The position numbers were made by a program, and so were the translations under genes. 58,572 bases of DNA, taken from contig JALTZZ010000060.1 in NCBI GenBank assembly GCA_027051165.1, positions 1 through 58,572 of the forward strand. The letters run 5' to 3'. The notes under the pieces are model-generated. The model was not told the origin of the DNA, ran no database searches, and worked only from the letters and a program-made list of their open reading frames with translations. Below are positions 846-50,061 of this stretch, in pieces. This DNA is from an archaeon. Its GTDB lineage: Archaea; Hydrothermarchaeota; Hydrothermarchaeia; JALTZZ01. Position 1 is the stretch's first letter; every line of letters starts with the position of its first letter.

Positions 846-3758
846 ATGAAGAGAGAGATGATACAGTCAGAAGAATACATTGCTAAGGAGCTGAAAAATC
901 TTGGCTGGAAGTATGTAGAGCAAAGTAGGCTTATTGTTGATCCTTCTCAACCCATTGCAGTAGAACATCTGAAAACCTCTTTAAAAAGGATAAATCCTGA
1001 AATAAGCGATAAAGAAGTAGAAGAGGTTATAAAAACGCTTGAATATACGCCTGTATCCTATGAGGGTGCTAAAAAGATTCTGAGGTATATAAAGTATGGT
1101 TTGCCAATAGAAGACCCAAAAACAAAGCTTCCAAAGGAGATAAAGCTGATAGATTATGATAATCCTGATAAAAACTCCTTTTTATATTCGAGGCAGGTTA
1201 GATATGGAATTGTTCCAGACATTGTTCTTTACATAAACGGCTTGCCGATTATGCTAATAGAGTGCAAGGCTATAAACGTTGGATGGAAAGAGGCTTATAA
1301 GCAGGTAAAAAGATATGAAAAAGAATTTCCTGAACTTTTCAAGTATGTTCAGCTTAGTTTGGCTGTGGCTGATAAGATAGTATACTTTCCAAACGTTCCT
1401 TGGAGCGAAGAAGTTTCAGTTTATGAGTGGAAACCAAACCCAATAGAATTCTTGGAAAAAGAGAAAATTCTTAACATTTTAAAATACTTTACCTTTTATA
1501 GGGAAAAAGATGGAAAAATTACAAAGGTTTTACCAAGGTATATGCAGTATAGAGCAGTAAACAGCATTGTTAACAGAGCTGTAAGGTATGCAAGAGGAGA
1601 AAGCGAGAGAAATAAGGGATTAATATGGCATTGGCAAGGTTCTGGAAAAACCCTTACAATGATTTTCTCTGCATATAAAATTCAGGATTTGCTTGGGAAT
1701 CCGACAATATTCTTTATAGTTGATAGAAGAGAGCTCCAAACTCAGCTAAAAGAAGAGCTTAGGGCTTTGAAGATAGGTTTTAAGGTTGTAAGGTCTATAC
1801 CACATTTGAAAAGAATTTTAACCCATGCTGATGGAGAAAGGGGAATTTTCATAGCATTGATTCAGAAGTTTAGGGAGGAGGAGTTTAGAGAGCTTATAAG
1901 CATGATTAAAGAAATAGGGAAAAAGAAGCTGAGCATAATGGATAGAAAAGATGTAGTGGTGCTTATAGATGAAGGTCATAGAACGCAATATGGAGACTTG
2001 GCGGCTGTTATGCGAACTGTGCTTAAAAAAGCCTCTTTCTTTGCATTTACAGGAACACCTATAGCGAAGGTTGGCAGAGATACATACGCTACGTTTGGAT
2101 ATGAAGACGAGCCTTACCTCGATAGATACTTTATAATTGACTCGATAAAAGACGGATATACTGTTAAAATAGCATATCAGGCAAGGCTTGATTTGGAGCA
2201 CCTTGACAGAGATTCATTAGAGGTATTTCTGTCATCGAAACTTGAGGAGATTCCAGAAGAGTATAGAGAGAAAGTTGAGGAAGATTTAAAGAAAAAGCTT
2301 AATGCTATAAAGGTTGTGCTGAAGAATCCAAAGAGAATAGAGAGAGTAGCAAGAGATATAGCTATGCACTACAAAAAGCATGTTGAACCCTTTAAGGCTA
2401 TGGTTGTTGCTGTTGATAGGGAAGCCTGCGTTCTGTATAAGGAAGCCCTTGATAAATTTCTTCCAGAGGATTACAGCGAGATTGTGATGACGTTTAACCA
2501 GAACGATACGGAGAAAATAAGAAAATATTTCGAAATTCTCAGAGAAAAATATAAAACAAAGGAACAGAAAGATATAAGAGAAGAGATTATAAGGAGATTT
2601 AAAAAAGAAAACGAAAAACCAAAGATATTAATTGTTACCGACATGCTTTTAACAGGGTTTGATGCTCCGATACTTCAGACAATGTATTTGGATAAGCCTC
2701 TTAAGGAGCATAGACTTTTGCAGGCTATAGCGAGGACAAACAGACCTTACATTAAAGATGGGGAAAACGTAAAAGGTGCTGGGCTTGTAATAGATTATAT
2801 CGGAATATTCAAGGAGCTTAAAAAGGCGTTGTCAATATACGATGAGGCAGATATAAGAGGTGTTGCATACAACATTGAGGAAATTAAGGAGGAACTGAAG
2901 AAAAAAATAAATGAGATAATGAAGATCTTTGATGGAATACCAAGAAACTTAGATAGGGAGACAATAGATAAAGCTATAAACAGAATTGAGGAACTTGATA
3001 AGGGGAATTTATTTAAAAAGCTTTACAGAGAAATAAGAAACCTATATAGATTGCTAATTGAAGAAAGGATAGAATTTAAGCAGGATTTTGATTGGCTTAC
3101 TGAGGTTTATTATGCATATTATAGGAAGGTTGAGGGTATAGATTCAGTTGAGATAGAGCAGAAAAGAGATCAGTTCTTTAAGGAGGCTCTGAGATTTATA
3201 CATGAAACTATAGATGTAGAGAAAATTAGGAAGGATTTTCCAATAGTTGAGCTTGATGAGGAGTTCTTGAAAAAGGTTATGAAGAAGGAGAAAGCGAGAT
3301 CGTTCTACGACCTTCTTTTTGCTGTAAACCGATATATAAAGAGGGGTGAAGCACTAATAACAGAAGATATAGTTGAAAGGGTTGAAAAAATCATTAAAAA
3401 CTGGAGGGAAAGAGAAAAAAATGTAGAGGAATTATATGATGAGCTTTTATCTGTTGCAAAAACAATTAATGAGAGAAGAAAGGAAATGGAAAGACTTAAG
3501 CTTACTCCTCTTGAATACTCTTTAATTTTAGCTCTTAGGAACCACATGAGAGCAAGCACAGAGGAGCTTATAGAAATTGCTAAAGAAATTATAAAAAATA
3601 CAGAAAAGGATAGATTTGAAGGGTGGAAAGAAAAAAGTGATGTTATAAAGAATATTTCAAAAAACATATTGTTTTTCCTCATTAAATATAGAGAAAGATT
3701 GGACAACATACAAAAGACGAGAGATGACATTGTTGAAAGTTTAATGAAGTGGGGATAA
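846..3758 (+). CDS. hsdR: Type I restriction enzyme R subunit (HsdR)
   Basis: N-terminal nuclease-like region (VPDIVLYINGLPIMLIECK), Walker A WQGSGKT, DEGH box, SF2 helicase motifs. Confidence 0.93.
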   Translation: MKREMIQSEEYIAKELKNLGWKYVEQSRLIVDPSQPIAVEHLKTSLKRINPEISDKEVEEVIKTLEYTPVSYEGAKKILRYIKYGLPIEDPKTKLPKEIKLIDYDNPDKNSFLYSRQVRYGIVPDIVLYINGLPIMLIECKAINVGWKEAYKQVKRYEKEFPELFKYVQLSLAVADKIVYFPNVPWSEEVSVYEWKPNPIEFLEKEKILNILKYFTFYREKDGKITKVLPRYMQYRAVNSIVNRAVRYARGESERNKGLIWHWQGSGKTLTMIFSAYKIQDLLGNPTIFFIVDRRELQTQLKEELRALKIGFKVVRSIPHLKRILTHADGERGIFIALIQKFREEEFRELISMIKEIGKKKLSIMDRKDVVVLIDEGHRTQYGDLAAVMRTVLKKASFFAFTGTPIAKVGRDTYATFGYEDEPYLDRYFIIDSIKDGYTVKIAYQARLDLEHLDRDSLEVFLSSKLEEIPEEYREKVEEDLKKKLNAIKVVLKNPKRIERVARDIAMHYKKHVEPFKAMVVAVDREACVLYKEALDKFLPEDYSEIVMTFNQNDTEKIRKYFEILREKYKTKEQKDIREEIIRRFKKENEKPKILIVTDMLLTGFDAPILQTMYLDKPLKEHRLLQAIARTNRPYIKDGENVKGAGLVIDYIGIFKELKKALSIYDEADIRGVAYNIEEIKEELKKKINEIMKIFDGIPRNLDRETIDKAINRIEELDKGNLFKKLYREIRNLYRLLIEERIEFKQDFDWLTEVYYAYYRKVEGIDSVEIEQKRDQFFKEALRFIHETIDVEKIRKDFPIVELDEEFLKKVMKKEKARSFYDLLFAVNRYIKRGEALITEDIVERVEKIIKNWREREKNVEELYDELLSVAKTINERRKEMERLKLTPLEYSLILALRNHMRASTEELIEIAKEIIKNTEKDRFEGWKEKSDVIKNISKNILFFLIKYRERLDNIQKTRDDIVESLMKWG

Positions 3759-3759
3759 T

Positions 3760-4407
3760 ATGGAGCTGATATATAGGAAAATAAAGCATGCAAGAATAGA
3801 AATAAAGCCTGATGGAAAAATTGTAGTAGTGGCACCTCCAAATACTGATATAAACAAAATTTTGGAGAAAAATAAGAAATGGATAGAGAAAAAGCTAAAA
3901 GAATTGGAAAAGATAAACAAAGAAATAGAAGGTAAGGAAAACATGCTTCTTTTAAACGGAAAATTTTATAAGCTTGAGAATGGAAGTAGAAAAATAAAAA
4001 TTGAAGATAGCACAATTCACTTCGATGGAGATTATAAAAAGCTCAAGAAATGGTTAAAAAATAAATTTAGAAGGGAAATTGAGGAGAAAGTCAAGCTATT
4101 TTCCTTTATACTCGGAACAAAGTATAAGAAGATATATATCAGAATGCAAAAAACGAAATGGGCAAGCTGTTCTTCTTCTGGAAATCTAAGCTTCAACTTA
4201 GCATTGCTTGCTCTTCCTGAAGAGATAAGAGATTATGTAATAATACATGAAATTGCCCATTTAATAGAGCCAAAGCATACGAAGAGGTTTTGGAAAATTG
4301 TTGAGAAATACTGCACAGATTACAAAAATGCGAGAAAAGAACTGAGTAAATATTGGATATATTTGGAGAGAAACAATGTTTGGAGAAAACTAAGGGAAAT
4401 AAAATAA
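3760..4407 (+). CDS. YgjP-like (DUF45) M48-type metallopeptidase
   Basis: HEIAHLIEPKHTKRFW zinc-protease motif; immediately downstream of hsdR, a common association. Confidence 0.88.
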   Translation: MELIYRKIKHARIEIKPDGKIVVVAPPNTDINKILEKNKKWIEKKLKELEKINKEIEGKENMLLLNGKFYKLENGSRKIKIEDSTIHFDGDYKKLKKWLKNKFRREIEEKVKLFSFILGTKYKKIYIRMQKTKWASCSSSGNLSFNLALLALPEEIRDYVIIHEIAHLIEPKHTKRFWKIVEKYCTDYKNARKELSKYWIYLERNNVWRKLREIK

Positions 4408-5784: not shown

Positions 5785-6645
5785 TCACAGCTGTGAGGAT
5801 TCATATACCTTCACAGAGCCAAGGAGACGTTTTTCTCTGAGGTAGGAAAACATCTCGTATAGTTCATCAGCAACCTTGGAATACCACTCATCTGCACTCG
5901 TTTCCCTCGCCAAATAGTGCATCGCTCCCACGTTTATCGGATTTCTTCCCTGAATGAAGTCAACAACGTCGGCTGGAACACCTTTTCTAAACAGAAAGTT
6001 GTAGTGCCACTTCCTCAAATACTTCAGCCTTATCTTCCTTCTCTTAAAGTAGTTTTTGACCCCAGCAACGGTTATATCAAGCCTTTTGAGCTTCTTAGTG
6101 AACTTTAATGGTATGTAAACGAAGTAAACGTTTTTAGTTCTCCTTAAATAGTTCAGAGGATACTTCGCAAAGTTCTTGTATCTTATCAAGTTATTTTCAT
6201 CATAGTTTTTAAGCATGTGAACCGCTTCCCTTATTCTTATACCGCTGTAACAGAGGAACTCGTAGAGAATCCTGTATTTCTCCATGTCTATTCTCATGTA
6301 GTCCCTTAGAACTTTCTCCGTGGGAGGTCTGTATGTATCTATACCACCTTTGGGAATCTTCACAAGCTTTCTGTATATCATCAGCGAGTTGAAGTCCAGA
6401 ATTCCCGTTTCCTCGCAGAAGTTGAAAAGATTTCTTAAAGCCGTTCTCAAGTGTCTTTTGCCCCTTTCCACATTGAGCAGGCTTAAAATAGCGTTTATGT
6501 CAACTTTTCCGTTAACGTATCTGTCGAGATAGCTTATCATCTTCTTTGCATGCTCCTTGCTAACCCTCTGGTAGAGCCATGCTATAAACCGCTCTCTTAT
6601 TGCATGGTAGTCTATCGGCTTAGCCTCCATCAGCAAATACTTCAA
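5785..6645 (-). CDS. int: Archaeal tyrosine recombinase/integrase
   Basis: YSGIRIREAVHML (catalytic R region), RKWHYNFLFRKGVPADVVDFIQGR, late Tyr region; adjacent to tRNA; stop codon is inside the TCACAGCTGTGA palindrome. Confidence 0.88.
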   Translation of the reverse strand: MKYLLMEAKPIDYHAIRERFIAWLYQRVSKEHAKKMISYLDRYVNGKVDINAILSLLNVERGKRHLRTALRNLFNFCEETGILDFNSLMIYRKLVKIPKGGIDTYRPPTEKVLRDYMRIDMEKYRILYEFLCYSGIRIREAVHMLKNYDENNLIRYKNFAKYPLNYLRRTKNVYFVYIPLKFTKKLKRLDITVAGVKNYFKRRKIRLKYLRKWHYNFLFRKGVPADVVDFIQGRNPINVGAMHYLARETSADEWYSKVADELYEMFSYLREKRLLGSVKVYESSQL

Positions 6646-6748: not shown

Positions 6749-6770
6749 AAGTTGTTTTCAAAAAATGAAG

Positions 6771-6843
6771 TGCGACCGCCGGGATTTGAACCCGGGCTAC
6801 GGGTTTGGCAGACCCGTGTCCTACCAGGCTAGACTACGGTCGC
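6771..6843 (-). tRNA. tRNA-Gly(GCC)
   Basis: Acceptor GCGACCG/CGGTCGC, anticodon loop CTGCCAA, T-arm CGGGTTCAAATCCCG. Confidence 0.93.
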
Positions 6844-27894: not shown

Positions 27895-29028
27895 ATGGAA
27901 AAATTATGCTGGCTTGAGATAGAAAACTACAGAGGAATAAAAAAAGCACGACTCGAAAACTTCGGAGACATTAATGTTTTTGTTGGGAGAAACAATACTG
28001 GCAAGAGCACGATACTCGAAGCTATTTATCTTAACATTACAGCACAGAATTTAGATTTAATTGGCAACCATCCAATTCTTTTAATTTTCCAAAGAAGAGG
28101 TGCAAGATTACCTTCGCCAATAATCTCTCGAAGAATTTTTGAGATTGAAGATATTTTTCACTATTTTAGCTACATTTTTTATCAAGGTGATATAGATAAG
28201 AAAGTTAATTTAAAATCAAACTTAGCCGATTATAGCTTAAGCGTATTTAAAGAATATGAAATTCCAGAAAAATTGCTGAACTTTATAAAAGATTATTTGA
28301 AAAAAACAACCTTTCGTGAAAAAATTGATGTTATAGAACCATTATTTGTTGTTATTGATAATGCTCAAAAACCCCAGATAATTGTGTTTAAAGAGATTTT
28401 TCCAAAGAGATACATTAAGTATGGCGTGGAATTTATAATACCAACGCTAAAAAAGCAAAAGAGAAAGAATGTTATTATAGTTGATACTCACTGGCTATTT
28501 TATTACAGTATATTTGAAGAACCTCAAATTACAATAGCTTTAAGACGTCTTGAAAGGATTGCAAGAATAGATAAAGAAGATCTGGTTAGTTTTCTATCAG
28601 AACAGCTTGAACTTGAGATATCTACTGTGCAGTTGGGACTTTTCGATATCTATGTTGTAACCAAAGATGACAAAGTTATACCTTTCAGCCTTTTGGGCGA
28701 TGGAACGAAGATGTCACTTGCATATTTTTATACCTTATCGGTTAAAGATTCTCACATACTATTCGAAGAGCCAGAGAACCATCTTCATCCAAAATTGATG
28801 AATCGCTGTATAGATTTAATGTTAAAATCTTCTGATCACAATCAGATATTTATAACAACACACAATCTGGAATTTTTACAAAAGATTCTCAAAAAAGCTA
28901 AAGAATTAAACAAAAATTTAAGGGTATTTTCAATAGCAAGCTTAAAAGACGGTGATCTTGAATATGAATCTTACGATCTTGATGAAGCATATATAGCTCT
29001 TAATAGAATTGGAGTTGATCTGAGATGA
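27895..29028 (+). CDS. OLD/AAA15-type ATPase
   Basis: LEIENYRGIKKARLENFGDINVFVGRNNTGKSTILEAI; FEEPENHLHP Walker B; TTHN. Confidence 0.9.
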   Translation: MEKLCWLEIENYRGIKKARLENFGDINVFVGRNNTGKSTILEAIYLNITAQNLDLIGNHPILLIFQRRGARLPSPIISRRIFEIEDIFHYFSYIFYQGDIDKKVNLKSNLADYSLSVFKEYEIPEKLLNFIKDYLKKTTFREKIDVIEPLFVVIDNAQKPQIIVFKEIFPKRYIKYGVEFIIPTLKKQKRKNVIIVDTHWLFYYSIFEEPQITIALRRLERIARIDKEDLVSFLSEQLELEISTVQLGLFDIYVVTKDDKVIPFSLLGDGTKMSLAYFYTLSVKDSHILFEEPENHLHPKLMNRCIDLMLKSSDHNQIFITTHNLEFLQKILKKAKELNKNLRVFSIASLKDGDLEYESYDLDEAYIALNRIGVDLR

Positions 29029-29705
29029 AACTCATAATTCTTGAAGGATACAACGATTTGCAGTTTTTCAAAAGTTTTCTTATAAGAATAATGGGGGCTG
29101 ATGATAAGACCTCAGAAGAAAAATTGTTGGTAGAAAATTTTAGAAGATTAATACAGAGTAATCCAGAAATGGCAAGAGTAAATATTCTTAAGCTAAATAA
29201 AGAAAAGATACTGTTGCTAAGCGTAGGTGGAAAAGAAAATTTCAGATTACTTGCAGAAGGATTAAGACCACTTGTTAATAAGATAAAAAGAGAAAAAGAT
29301 GAGATAATAGATGGGATTCTTTTTATAGCAGATGAAGATGCAAAAGTGGATATTAAACATGCTTTAGAAACTATAAAAAATTCAAACCTTGCCATAGATG
29401 CCGACTATATACTCTATGATAGCTACTTGGAGGATATGATAATAGAAACAGCCAGTTTAATCATGGAAAGTGTTAATGAGAAGGAAAGAAAGCTCTTAAA
29501 ATATGTTATTAATATTATTGATGAACATTTTAAAAATGATAAATATATTAAAAAGCGAAAGATTGCAATCATGCATGCAATCATAGGTCCAAGATGCTTT
29601 GGACATTTATATGATGAAATATTTCAAAAATGTAAAAAATTTCAAAATCTATTTCAAAAATTAAGAGTATTTGGCAAGCTGATAAATTGGATAAACAGAA
29701 AGTAG
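29025..29705 (+). CDS. DUF3226/TOPRIM-like protein paired with the ATPase
   Basis: MKLIILEGYNDLQFFK…; DADYILYDSYLEDMI; start overlaps preceding stop. Confidence 0.7.
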   Translation: MKLIILEGYNDLQFFKSFLIRIMGADDKTSEEKLLVENFRRLIQSNPEMARVNILKLNKEKILLLSVGGKENFRLLAEGLRPLVNKIKREKDEIIDGILFIADEDAKVDIKHALETIKNSNLAIDADYILYDSYLEDMIIETASLIMESVNEKERKLLKYVINIIDEHFKNDKYIKKRKIAIMHAIIGPRCFGHLYDEIFQKCKKFQNLFQKLRVFGKLINWINRK

Positions 29706-43707: not shown

Positions 43708-44352
43708 ATGAAAGTTGAGCTAAAAGTTGAGAAAGCAATGCAAGATGATGTTGGTAAAGGAATCGTTAGAATAGACACAAGAACAAGAGAAATTCTTGGA
43801 GTTGCAGCTGGAGATATTGTTGAAATAATTGGTAAGCGTGCTACAGCTGCGATTGTTTTGCATGCTTATGATGAAGATGAGGGCTTAGGCATTATAAGAA
43901 TGGACGGTATTTTAAGGCAGAATGCAAAGGTAGCTTGGGGCGAAAAGGTAAAGGTTAGAAAAGCTAAAGCCGAAGATGCAGAAAAAGTTATCTTATCACT
44001 TTTACATCATGTTAGGTTCTCTCCTGGATTTGGTGAGTTTATAAAACGCAAATTACTTGGCAGACCTGTTGTTAAAGGAGATAAAATCGGTGTTAGTGTT
44101 CTTGGCACCATGATACCTTTTAAGGTTGTTCAAACGATACCAGAAGGTATAGTAACGATAGAGGGTTTCACAGAGGTAATAGTTAGAAGAGGGAAATATA
44201 CCAAGGAAGCTTTATTTATGTTTCTTGAGGAGATAAGAAAAGATATTAAAGAAATTAAAAAATTCCTCTTTAAGCTTGAAAATAGAATTGCAAGTATAGA
44301 ATATGAAATGAGAGATTTGAGAGACAAAATGAAAAGCATAGAGAAGAAATAA
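43708..44352 (+). CDS. Stand-alone CDC48/VAT N-domain-like protein with C-terminal coiled coil, no AAA domain
   Basis: GKGIVRIDTRTREILGVAAGDIVEIIGKRATAAIVLHAYDEDEGLGIIRMDGILRQNAKVAWGEKVKVRKA matches the CDC48 N-domain pattern. Confidence 0.85.
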   Translation: MKVELKVEKAMQDDVGKGIVRIDTRTREILGVAAGDIVEIIGKRATAAIVLHAYDEDEGLGIIRMDGILRQNAKVAWGEKVKVRKAKAEDAEKVILSLLHHVRFSPGFGEFIKRKLLGRPVVKGDKIGVSVLGTMIPFKVVQTIPEGIVTIEGFTEVIVRRGKYTKEALFMFLEEIRKDIKEIKKFLFKLENRIASIEYEMRDLRDKMKSIEKK

Positions 44353-44442
44353 AAAATATGATAAAGAATGTTATTTACATATTTGTATCATGACAACCTT
44401 TACCACGTTAAGGATAGAGTTACAAATTAAAACCTAATAAAG

Positions 44443-45081
44443 GTGAACAAAATGGTAAAAGCTGCTGATATAGAGGCTCTTTTTAAAAAGTATATTGAAG
44501 AAAATAGTATTGAACGTGCAGATGCTCTTTACCTTTTGTATGCTGTTGGAAAGGAAAATGCAGCAAAAACACTAAGAATAAGATATGGAATTTCTGCACC
44601 GTTATCTTCGGTTATAGAAGATTTAAAGAGACTCAATATAGAACCAGGAGAATCTTTAAAACTTGAAGATACTGGAGAATATATAGGAGATGCTGTAAAA
44701 AGCGCATTTAACTACATGTGTCTAAGGAAAATATTAGAAAATGTTGAAAAAATTAAAGAGAATTTAAGCAGAGAAGCTAAAAATGTATTGTATACCATTA
44801 AAGAGATGGATAAACTTGATATTAGTGTCTTAGACCATATAGAGCTTGCCTACTACCTTTTATTTAAAGATTTGCACAACGAGTTTAAAGATATCCCTTT
44901 AAGAAATATAATAGAAAATGCATTGAATGAGCTTGTTAGGTACCATATTCTTTATCTTACCTCCTATCTCCCTGGATATGGTCTTACTCCATATTGGAGA
45001 GACGTTTTGAATATTTTGAAGGATGAGATCCCAGAAATAGAGATTAAAGTTCATTATAAACAGAAGGAGGTGCCAAGATAA
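44443..45081 (+). CDS. Uncharacterised protein, operon gene 1
   Basis: ORF, overlaps next start (TAATG). Confidence 0.7.
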   Translation: MNKMVKAADIEALFKKYIEENSIERADALYLLYAVGKENAAKTLRIRYGISAPLSSVIEDLKRLNIEPGESLKLEDTGEYIGDAVKSAFNYMCLRKILENVEKIKENLSREAKNVLYTIKEMDKLDISVLDHIELAYYLLFKDLHNEFKDIPLRNIIENALNELVRYHILYLTSYLPGYGLTPYWRDVLNILKDEIPEIEIKVHYKQKEVPR

Positions 45082-45692
45082 TGTTTAAAGAACATTTAGC
45101 AAATATGATTAGAGCTTTTATGGCAATTTCTCCATCAAGGAACTACATAACCCAGTTTTTATATCTGATAAAAGAAAGCGGTGGAATAGAGTATGCTACT
45201 CTTGAAAGCGGATACAAGGAATTGTTAAATGATGAGGTGAGAGAAAACATTGCAAAAGCCTTTGGAATAGCATTTGATGAAAAAGTTTACTTAGAAGATG
45301 GTTATGGTAGGAAATTAACGGAATTCATAGATAAAATTTTTGAGCTGTTTGAAGATGAAGAATTTAGAAAAAATTTAGAAGTTCTCCTCAAAGATGAATT
45401 TCCAGAAGGCATTCCGAATTTAAGGAAAGAATGGATAGAAGTAAAGCTTCAAGGCTTAAGGAATGATCAGAATTATGGTGAAACAGCAGTAGCTATTTTA
45501 AAGGAATTAACAAAGTTTACCCGCATGAAAGCGGATGAACTCGAAAAGAAGCTGAATAAAAGTAAATCTAAAATTTTAAGCTCATTAGAACTCCTTAAAA
45601 TATATGGACTTGTAAGCGTAGAGTATGACGGGAGCTATAGAATTCCCTCTGATATAGTAAACAAATATAAAGACATTTTGGAGGCTCTATAG
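45081..45692 (+). CDS. Uncharacterised protein, SPSRN-x-I-x-QF motif, operon gene 2
   Basis: AFMAISPSRNYITQFLYLI; C-terminal wHTH-like segment. Confidence 0.7.
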   Translation: MFKEHLANMIRAFMAISPSRNYITQFLYLIKESGGIEYATLESGYKELLNDEVRENIAKAFGIAFDEKVYLEDGYGRKLTEFIDKIFELFEDEEFRKNLEVLLKDEFPEGIPNLRKEWIEVKLQGLRNDQNYGETAVAILKELTKFTRMKADELEKKLNKSKSKILSSLELLKIYGLVSVEYDGSYRIPSDIVNKYKDILEAL

Positions 45693-46459
45693 TGGAAGAC
45701 GTAAAAAGAAATCTTCAAAACTTGATAAACGCTCTAACAAATTTGTCTCCCTCAAGAAATATGATATCTCAGTTTATCCTATTGCTTCCAGAGAAGTATC
45801 AGAATATTGATACTTCGTTTCCAGAAATTATAGAAAACAGAAAAATTCTTGAAAAATTGGGTATATTATTCGATAATAAGATTTCAAGAAAGACGGATTC
45901 CTTTTTGGAAAATTTATATAATTTTATTCATGAAACTTTTGATTGGCTTTCAAACGAAAGGGAAGAACTTGTTAAGATATGCGATAATGTTCACGACCCA
46001 TACTCAGAGTGGGTGGAGCTTGTTTTAAGGAAGATTATGAAAGAGCCTAATGGATATAAAGCCTTAAAACTACTCAAGGATTTTATAGAATATTTAAAAC
46101 GTCCTATAAGTGCTGCTTCATACGAATGGGTAAATGGACAAATAAAAGATTTCTTTGAGAAGAAAATGAAAGAATACGGATTATCACCAGCAGAAGTTTA
46201 TAGATATAAAAGACTCCTTATAGATAACAGAGATTCAACTTTTATTAGAGTGAAAGAACGTTATGAAAATTCAGAACATCGTATATATTTAAGACACTCA
46301 AAGTATCATATCGACATTCTCTTAAAAGAAGTAGATATATATGCTTGGGAAAGGGGATATAAAAGGGGATATGATTATCATTATAATTTTTATATAGACC
46401 AATCAAAAGCAGAGAAAATAAAAAGAATTTTGGAGAAGTTGCTGTATGAAGGAGATTGA
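45692..46459 (+). CDS. Uncharacterised paralogue-like protein, operon gene 3
   Basis: ALTNLSPSRNMISQFILLL; overlaps gene 2 stop. Confidence 0.7.
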   Translation: MEDVKRNLQNLINALTNLSPSRNMISQFILLLPEKYQNIDTSFPEIIENRKILEKLGILFDNKISRKTDSFLENLYNFIHETFDWLSNEREELVKICDNVHDPYSEWVELVLRKIMKEPNGYKALKLLKDFIEYLKRPISAASYEWVNGQIKDFFEKKMKEYGLSPAEVYRYKRLLIDNRDSTFIRVKERYENSEHRIYLRHSKYHIDILLKEVDIYAWERGYKRGYDYHYNFYIDQSKAEKIKRILEKLLYEGD

Positions 46460-48506
46460 AAAGTCTAAAGAAAGGATTTATGAAATAAGGAGAAGAAAGA
46501 TTAGAGAAGAAACTGAAGAAGAGAAGGGATATCCAAAAGAGAAAAAACAAAAGCTTTATCATAGAAAAATAAGCATTCCACTACTTGAAGCTCAGGTTAG
46601 AAAAACAGATAAACTATTGCCAAAAATTTCAATTAAAGGACAAATATTTTCTATAAAAACAAAAGAATTTTTAAATGTTTCTGTGCAAGACGTTATATAT
46701 CCAAACCTAACAAACTACGCTGAAGAAAAAATCTTCATAGATACTTTAGATCAAGAACCTTTGGAGCTCAAAACCAAAATAAAACCTTTATTGTCTTTAA
46801 AAAATGAATCTCTTGGCATAGAAACTGTAGAAACTGAAATAATTTACATTTCTAACAAATACCTTCCAAATTTATCTCTAAAAAATAAATTGCAAATAAA
46901 TCTGCAAATATTACCTACACAAAATCCTTTCTCAAATTTTAAGGTAATTCCAAATATAGCGATAAAAACAATAAAAATTCCTCAAATTGGAATACATAAT
47001 CCACCTGTAATAAATTCTAAAATTTATATTCCAGTTTTATCCTTTAAACCGTCTATAAAAGAAGAAGAGAAACAAAGAAAAGACGTCAAAACAAAAGAAG
47101 AATATCTTAAAAAATCAGTTGAGGAAATAGAAAGAATTGAAGAAAGCTTTGAGAAGGAGCCTTCTCTGGAAACTATTGGAGAAGACAAACCTCCTTCAGA
47201 GCTAATATTTTCTTATAGTGATGGGCTAAGTTTACCTGCAGATACCCGATTATTCTACATTGAAGGTAAGAAAGGAATGGGCTTTGAAGTCTTTAGAGGA
47301 TTACTTATGTTAGAACTCGAAGACAGAGGTAGAAAACCAAAGTTAGAGATTATATCATTCAAAAAACCAGATTATGGCGTGAAAGGTGATACAGCGGAAA
47401 TTAGGGAACCTGAGAAGTTGAAGAATATTTCAGATGATCGCTATGATTATTATAAGATTATATGGATAGAAAATTGTCCATTAAAATATTTAGAGAAGAA
47501 ACCTGAGTTGATTGAAGAGGTAATAAAAGCATTAAAAAAAGGTATAATGAAATACATAGTTTTTGCCGAACCTCAAGATATTCTCACCATTGTTGACCCA
47601 GAAGAAGTTCATAAGCAATTTGGAAGACTTTTTGCAAAATATGGTAATTTCTCTGTGCTAATTCTTAAGCACTATTTCTCACTCAAAGAGGAAAAAGATT
47701 GGGAAAAGAAAGAAAAGATATTAAGTGAGATAGTTGAGCTTTTCTGCAAAATATTGCAAATAAATAAAAGAGATATTAATCTTGGTAAGTTAATTGAGGA
47801 TGTTAAGGACTTAACACCTGATGAACCTATAGATGCTTTATGGAATATGTTATGGGAACGAAGAAATAGCGGTTTAGAAAAATTGCGAGATATTTTTGAA
47901 ACAGATCCTAAGGTATCTAAGTATTTACCACCTTCAGCAAAATTAGAAAATGAATCAGAAGAACACTTTGTATTTAAGCAACTCGTAATAAATTTCGCCT
48001 TAAGGAAAGGATACGAAGTAAATTACAATGATACTACCTATTACTTTAGTGAGGATTATACAAAGACGCATGTTTGGCAAAAGGATAAAATTGAAATTGA
48101 AGAAGAACCTTTAGAAATTGAGGTTGAGGAACTTAAGTATAAAGAAGAAGATGGTAGAAAAATTCCTATTAAAAGACCTGATGTCGTTATTATAACAAAA
48201 GAAGGTAAGAAAATTTGGGTAGAAGTAGAAACTTGTAAAGTTGCCAAGAAAGACCCTCTTAAATTTGTGAAAGATAAGCTTAGGAAATTAACTGAGGTTG
48301 AAGAAACAGAAAGACCAGATGAAATATGGGTCGTTTTTCCGTATAGAAAATATGTTATCTATGGGAAACAATTAAAGGACAGAATTCGTAAATACTTCAT
48401 ACAGTTTGCAAGTAAGAACTCCTTAATAGAAAAAGGAAAAATTATCAAGTTTAAACCACGAATCTTTTTAGCAGATATATATAATGGCACGCTTGAAGAA
48501 ATTTAA
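46446..48506 (+). CDS. Large protein with C-terminal PD-(D/E)XK-like nuclease domain, operon gene 4
   Basis: KRPDVVIITKEGKKIWVEVETCKV…DEIWVVFPYRKYVIYG. Confidence 0.7.
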   Translation: MKEIEKSKERIYEIRRRKIREETEEEKGYPKEKKQKLYHRKISIPLLEAQVRKTDKLLPKISIKGQIFSIKTKEFLNVSVQDVIYPNLTNYAEEKIFIDTLDQEPLELKTKIKPLLSLKNESLGIETVETEIIYISNKYLPNLSLKNKLQINLQILPTQNPFSNFKVIPNIAIKTIKIPQIGIHNPPVINSKIYIPVLSFKPSIKEEEKQRKDVKTKEEYLKKSVEEIERIEESFEKEPSLETIGEDKPPSELIFSYSDGLSLPADTRLFYIEGKKGMGFEVFRGLLMLELEDRGRKPKLEIISFKKPDYGVKGDTAEIREPEKLKNISDDRYDYYKIIWIENCPLKYLEKKPELIEEVIKALKKGIMKYIVFAEPQDILTIVDPEEVHKQFGRLFAKYGNFSVLILKHYFSLKEEKDWEKKEKILSEIVELFCKILQINKRDINLGKLIEDVKDLTPDEPIDALWNMLWERRNSGLEKLRDIFETDPKVSKYLPPSAKLENESEEHFVFKQLVINFALRKGYEVNYNDTTYYFSEDYTKTHVWQKDKIEIEEEPLEIEVEELKYKEEDGRKIPIKRPDVVIITKEGKKIWVEVETCKVAKKDPLKFVKDKLRKLTEVEETERPDEIWVVFPYRKYVIYGKQLKDRIRKYFIQFASKNSLIEKGKIIKFKPRIFLADIYNGTLEEI

Positions 48507-48783: not shown

Positions 48784-50061
48784 GTGCACTTCATGAAAAT
48801 AGCAATTCCCGCTTGCATATACGAAATAAGCGAGGAAGAAGAGAAATATTTGCTGGATTTGTTCAGAAGGTTCGGAATAGCGAGGAGAAGAGCTTACAAC
48901 ATGCTTCGCAAGGGTTACATTAAATCAGAGATCGAGAAAATACTTCAGGAAGAGCTTAACTTAAACTCAAGATATATTAAAGATGCCATACACAGCGTTA
49001 AAAATCTGCCAGATGGCTGGGTATGCGGCGGTAAGAAGCTGCAGAAGCTTAGACAAAAAGGAAAAATTTCCAAGGAAGAGTTCAGAGATAGAAGAGATTC
49101 GTTCATTCTTTCAAGGGGAGATAAAAGCAAGAAGGGCAACCTAAACACAAGAATAATATTTGGGGAAGATATCGAGCTCAGAATAAACGTTCCTCCTAAA
49201 TACGGAGAATCAAAAAGATATATTTACCCTAAGCTATACATACCAGAGAAGTATTTGAGGAAGTATAAGCACCTTCTTGACTGTTCAAAGCCCTATACTG
49301 TCATCATAAAGAAGAGATTCGACAAGAACGGTTATGATGTAAGGATAATTGTTGATGTGGAATCTGAGGAAAACGAAGGTGATAGGGTTTTGGCTTTGGA
49401 TGTTAACGCTGGGCATACAGACTTTGCTGTGGTTGATAGGAAAACAAAGAATATCGTTGCTGTTGGTAAGTTTAATCATCATGAAACCCAGTTTGCCAAA
49501 AAAGGGAGAAGAACTTATCTTCTGCACAGATTGGCTGATAGGATCGGTAGAATTGCTAAACACTTTAATGCTACCGTTGTTGTAGGTAAATTGAAAACCT
49601 CTGAATTTAACGGCACAAAAAAGGCTAATCGTGAAGTTCACAGCATGCCTCATTTCAGGTTTAGGCAGATTCTTAAGTATAAACTTCCTTTAAAGTATGG
49701 TGTTAAGGTTAAGGAGCATTCTGAAGCCTTTACTTCTAAGGTTGGCAGAATATTAGGTAGATTTATAGGCTTGGATGTTCATAAGGCTTCGGCAATAGCC
49801 TTCGCTATTAAAGTCATTGATTATAACCTTTTCAAGCTCATCCTCTCCGAAGTCCGCTCAGATGAAGCCGATGGAAGGCTGAGAGCGAGGCTTGCTAAGG
49901 GATGCGGGCTAACCGCCCCCTGCCAGTCTCTAAGACTGGCAGGCGATGAAGCCTTTGAGCAGAGGCTAACGGGAGATCCCTGGTATCCCGTGCTCTCCGC
50001 TCTCGCGGAGAGTGTAAAAGCCAGCCTAACAGGTCGAATTTGGCTTGTGAAGATCTGTTAG
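48784..50061 (+). mobile_element. tnpB: TnpB-related (IS605 OrfB-like) protein gene; true C-terminus probably near 49,840
   Basis: RuvC-I-like LALDVNAGHTDFAVVD; NREVHSMPHFRFRQIL; EAFTSKVGRILGRFIGLDVHKASAIAFA; reading frame continues into GC-rich structured DNA. Confidence 0.75.

Follow-up and report, generated by a model that had tools for sequence, protein, structure and literature searches.

Domains of the PD-(D/E)XK superfamily, among them AF2093 (2ph7), the XisH-type 2okf, YaeQ, VRR_NUC, NucS and Can2/Card1, share an alpha-beta-beta-beta-alpha-beta core and a D...(D/E)-x-K motif. BamHI is a precedent for E-x-E in place of E-x-K. The last gene of the operon described here (gene 4) is similar to these proteins in its predicted alpha-beta core and in the order of its acidic residues. 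It differs from them by the E-x-E that replaces E-x-K in most members of its family, by the lack of a Pfam match, by a disordered N-terminus with repeats and by a middle part that looks AAA/Rossmann-like but has no P-loop. The systems collected in PADLOC-DB v2.0.0 are the second term of comparison. The module resembles them in being accessory and patchy and in combining a predicted nuclease with a putative DNA-binding partner, whereas genes 1, 3 and 4 match no described defence protein family in that database and gene 2 matches Csa3/CARF regulators in their winged-helix part only. In the open-access library searched, no account of the module turned up. The operon is one of a hitherto unnamed family of operons with a nuclease fold; the family is patchily distributed and looks accessory and possibly antiviral.

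The window, meaning the whole stretch of 58,572 nucleotides analysed, is contig C60 of a 2.38-Mb archaeal genome in 171 contigs. A ribosomal cluster and secY are followed there by a zinc-ribbon-like gene, a CDC48-N gene, four overlapping genes and a TnpB-related ORF. The initial annotation described the four genes as an operon with overlapping stops and starts, and the layout was confirmed (44452-48506) except for the first start. Gene 1 probably begins at ATG 44452 and not at GTG 44443, because the Bathyarchaeota homologue in locus L035 begins at the equivalent Met and GGTG stands just upstream. Genes 1 and 2 overlap by 1 nt, genes 2 and 3 by 1 nt, and genes 3 and 4 by 14 nt, each overlap being accompanied by a Shine-Dalgarno-like sequence. 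The features are the following.

43708-44352, forward strand: CDC48-N gene, a neighbour judged to lie outside the module; stand-alone CDC48 N-domains and a coiled coil, paralogue of the genome's own CDC48
44452-45081, forward strand: gene 1, about 209 aa, with homologues in just two of about 30 module loci, L035 (E 9e-42) and L036 (E 5e-19)
45081-45692, forward strand: gene 2, a protein with the SPSRN motif and a C-terminal winged-helix signature
45692-46459, forward strand: gene 3, diverged paralogue of gene 2, in a separate clade together with its L035 and L036 counterparts
46446-48506, forward strand: gene 4, 686 aa, with an N-terminus that is disordered and carries repeats, a Rossmann/AAA-like middle (tentative) lacking a P-loop, and a PD-(D/E)XK-like domain at the C-terminus
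46518-47207, forward strand: N-terminal region of gene 4 (about residues 25-254), predicted disordered, with the [ILVF]P-x-[ILVF] motif
47913-48503, forward strand: nuclease-like domain of gene 4 (residues 490-686), with E503, H507, K511, D579 (48180-48182), E593-x-E595 (48222-48230) and T596
48784-50061, forward strand: TnpB-related ORF, a neighbour judged to lie outside the module; match to TIGR01766, E=2.6e-12

The last of these bears out the TnpB-related element that had been noted downstream. It had also been stated that adk, DUF106 or rpl34e genes usually continue after secY; this is the case in four relatives of the class, but two relatives of the same order carry a uppS-like gene at that place. 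Elsewhere in the window, judged by sequence appearance only, an OLD-like AAA ATPase and a TOPRIM-like gene overlap immediately upstream of the ribosomal cluster (27895-29705), an HsdR-like helicase-nuclease lies with a YgjP-like metallopeptidase gene (846-4407), and a recombinase-like gene (5785-6645) is found near tRNA-Gly (6770-6843).

The gene at 43708 had been assigned to the CDC48/VAT N-domain, without ATPase domains and with a coiled-coil end, and placed next to the operon. The assignment is correct. Like CDC48/VAT N-domain proteins, it has both N-subdomains (CDC48_N E=2e-28, CDC48_2 E=3.5e-16), the second of which aligns to PH1500 of the PH1500-like proteins, but it lacks the two AAA ATPase modules that define the CDC48 family AAA ATPases; TIGR01243 is matched over positions 2-167 of 733, with 166 bits vs a cut-off of 803. 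Over residues 1-167 it is 74% identical to the genome's own full-length CDC48, and it is a lineage-specific copy of the host CDC48 N-domain. A link to the operon is not supported, as the gene recurs beside none of about 30 other module loci; it was rejected as a component and is a neighbour only. A second stand-alone CDC48-N and coiled-coil protein is encoded in the same genome beside hypothetical genes (L012 3517-4305, G000:C83).

Genes 2 and 3 are paralogous (BLASTP E=7e-14, 28% identity over 147 aa), so that the SPSRN motif from which their kinship had been proposed reflects true homology. Winged-helix similarity is found both in gene 2 and in the profile of the gene 2/3 family. The usual form of the module elsewhere consists of two genes, a helical partner of ~410 aa (alignment A5) and then the gene 4 homologue. 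Several partners match the gene 2/3 profile weakly, and almost every intact locus has the partner directly upstream of the gene 4 homologue, often with an overlap. Only the window, L035 (a Bathyarchaeota MAG) and L036 (an Archaeoglobaceae MAG) yielded the four-gene form, of which gene 1 is an added component.

Searches of Pfam, NCBIfam, PADLOC and PHROGs with gene 4 produced nothing convincing, the homologues scanned had no Pfam match, and a sequence search against the PDB returned nothing useful. Structure prediction covered the full-length protein and the nuclease domain. The full-length protein was modelled poorly (pLDDT 50.6) and its N-terminal third came out unstructured; the AAA+ matches of this model in Foldseek (TM about 0.15) were not relied on. 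The AlphaFold2 model of the nuclease domain (pLDDT 73.6, pTM 0.71) contains the elements H16-31, E76-79, E82-85, E91-94, E100-105, H115-126 and E137-143, that is, the core of the PD-(D/E)XK superfamily. Its top Foldseek matches, which include AF2093, XisH-type 2okf, YaeQ, VRR_NUC, a Cap4 receptor, NucS, Cdn1, Can2, Card1 and EcoO109I, are mostly restriction-endonuclease-like. The best E is 5.6e-3 and none falls below 0.001; from rank 10 on the list also includes unrelated folds (carbonic anhydrase, Argonaute).

The alignment of 23 diverged members shows E/H/K in helix 1, D and E-x-E-T to be conserved in the C-terminal domain. A further Glu of gene 4 falls at 552-559, where the alignment is ambiguous. 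The window and most members read the D579...E593-x-E595 type, and the classical D-x-K is present in two homologues of one genome, L093 (DAK) and L091 (DGK). The nuclease domain is under purifying selection, with pairwise dN/dS values of 0.06-0.14 in three pairs, below those of the N-terminus; synonymous sites of a fourth pair are near saturation. Near-invariance of D, E-x-E, H and K under such selection is what a metal site would show. Family conservation, structure prediction and fold search, the last with modest Foldseek E-values, support the segment recognized at the end of gene 4 as a predicted PD-(D/E)XK-like nuclease domain. In the N-terminal part, residues 1-286 of the window protein contain the motif [ILVF]P-x-[ILVF] six times vs 1.5 expected, a count reached in 0 of 500 shuffles; the motif is likewise commoner than in shuffles in over half of the members that were tested.

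Single-sequence queries with gene 4 found no homologue in 83 genomes or in genome, viral and plasmid collections. The family was uncovered only through profiles of genes 2 and 3, which revealed homologous loci in Bathyarchaeota, Archaeoglobaceae, Hydrothermarchaeota, Helarchaeota and further archaeal genomes. It is much wider than the one operon first described, and mostly in the two-gene form. Gene 4 occurs in 23 of 397 sampled archaeal genomes, in 21 of 95 genomes of one family that is Thermococcus-like by gene content (one genome having four matches), and in 5 of 36 genomes of the order including Methanocaldococcus-like genomes. These counts leave out G103, G230 and G368, which have weak gene 2 profile matches only and no match to the nuclease profile. 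Bacteria were covered by two genome-contig scans and by plasmid and phage collections only. The phage and viral collections yielded no homologue. Plasmids gave a single one, from Halorussus pelagicus (L144 3242-10182): it makes up the C-terminus of a 1403-aa protein whose gene follows a phospholipase-D-type gene with a ZacB match. Several module copies are broken or interrupted; in L083 (6840-9909), a TnpB-like ORF on the opposite strand separates the partner gene from what is left of the nuclease gene.

In the gene 2/3 tree, the window copies group with the four-gene copies of Bathyarchaeota and Archaeoglobaceae and not with the copy of G014, a genome of the same class (support 89/87 for gene 2 and 100/99 for gene 3). 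The GC content of the module is 30-32% vs 40% in the ribosomal cluster. Because of this tree placement and lower GC, the module is read as acquired horizontally, as a unit, and the restriction of the four-gene form to the window and to the two MAGs likewise indicates horizontal transfer. Patchiness, transfer and decay, the marks of an accessory gene, are all present, and the accessory insertion suspected from the neighbourhood agrees with distribution, tree and GC. Such behaviour speaks against a housekeeping role.

We tentatively read the operon as an enlarged version of an archaeal nuclease module that is accessory and spreads horizontally, and whose most likely role is immunity against viruses or plasmids. 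The helical winged-helix subunits (genes 2 and 3, or the one ~410-aa protein of most archaea) would bind nucleic acid or an invader signal and attach to the disordered, repeat-carrying N-terminus of gene 4. Cleavage of nucleic acid would then fall to the PD-(D/E)XK-like domain at the C-terminus, through a putative E...D...E-x-E metal site of the type found in BamHI.

The two-gene coupling, the patchiness, the decay and the Halorussus plasmid copy would also suit a selfish or addiction module, in which gene 4 is a toxin nuclease restrained by the upstream partner, as in toxin-antitoxin pairs, and maintained by mobile elements; indeed, the Bathyarchaeota locus L035 resembles a mobile element. 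This is unlikely, as partner and nuclease are both large and constrained, and their size and the long disordered scaffold are atypical of toxin-antitoxin pairs.

A further association concerns a proteasome-like Ntn hydrolase, a Pfam Proteasome match just above the cut-off. In the Thermococcus-like family it occurs in 6 of 95 genomes, all of them module-bearing, and lies within about 4 kb of the nuclease gene in all six. The chance of such an overlap, with shared ancestry left out of account, is C(21,6)/C(95,6) = 6e-5. In G208 the module (L045) also has a homologue of this peptidase beside it. The peptidase loci are L078 6249-7085, L079 5755-6585, L145, L150, L152, L160 and L045 3094-3891. This tight link was unexpected, and the peptidase would be an extra component in one subtype of the module. 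It lends something to an equally improbable alternative, namely that the E-x-E site is inactive and the complex is a DNA- or protein-binding scaffold tied to protein quality control. The change of K to E in most members, the peptidase beside the module in 6 of 6 Thermococcus-like genomes having it, the Helarchaeota gene 2 homologue beside chaperone-type genes and the CDC48-N gene adjoining the window copy all fit such a regulator. On the other hand, the nearly invariant, selectively constrained residues are those expected of a metal site and D-x-K members exist, while the peptidase is confined to a minority of loci and the CDC48-N gene to the window. Least probable is a DNA repair or recombination module in which gene 4, guided by its winged-helix partners, processes damaged or branched DNA: the fold, the repair endonuclease NucS among the Foldseek matches and the replication-factor-C-like genes adjoining the module in one Thermococcus-like subgroup (L155-L157) are consistent with it, but core repair genes look different from a module that is carried by no more than ~6% of the archaeal genomes sampled and ~22% of one family, has decayed copies and varies in genomic site.

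For the immune reading, the neighbourhoods of the module were compared with 16 control stretches of the same genomes. Defence-type neighbours comprise a type II R-M pair (L040), BrxA/BrxB (L088), an MkoA-like helicase (L081), an IetA-like AAA protein (L089) and a match to a type I REase. Of 24 loci, about 4 lie near R-M, BREX, Mokosh-like or IetA-like genes, and the control stretches also match CRISPR (including Cas1 and Cas3) and other families, so no enrichment is claimed. Of the candidate defence system proposed in the initial annotation, the operon, the paralogy, the nuclease-like C-terminus and the accessory, horizontally acquired nature stand, and the defence role is plausible. Most copies sit between ordinary chromosomal genes, which, with the E-x-E of most members, the missing PADLOC match for gene 4, the lack of homologues in the phage and viral collections and the single one in plasmids, counts against an immune function. 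A defence role, proposed by analogy, is nevertheless our best guess. More doubtful is its stronger version, an archaeal immune system of new architecture in which a disordered scaffold of repeats carries both the winged-helix sensors and a nuclease whose E-x-E site is like that of BamHI, with the proteasome-like peptidase as second effector in some lineages. The occurrence of the two-gene form in Thermococcus-like and Methanocaldococcus-like genomes makes the module testable.

The Helarchaeota contig L039 (1007-4934) carries, in a row on one strand, genes for an Hsp70 that ends in a ubiquitin-like domain, for a DnaJ-like protein and for a homologue of gene 2.
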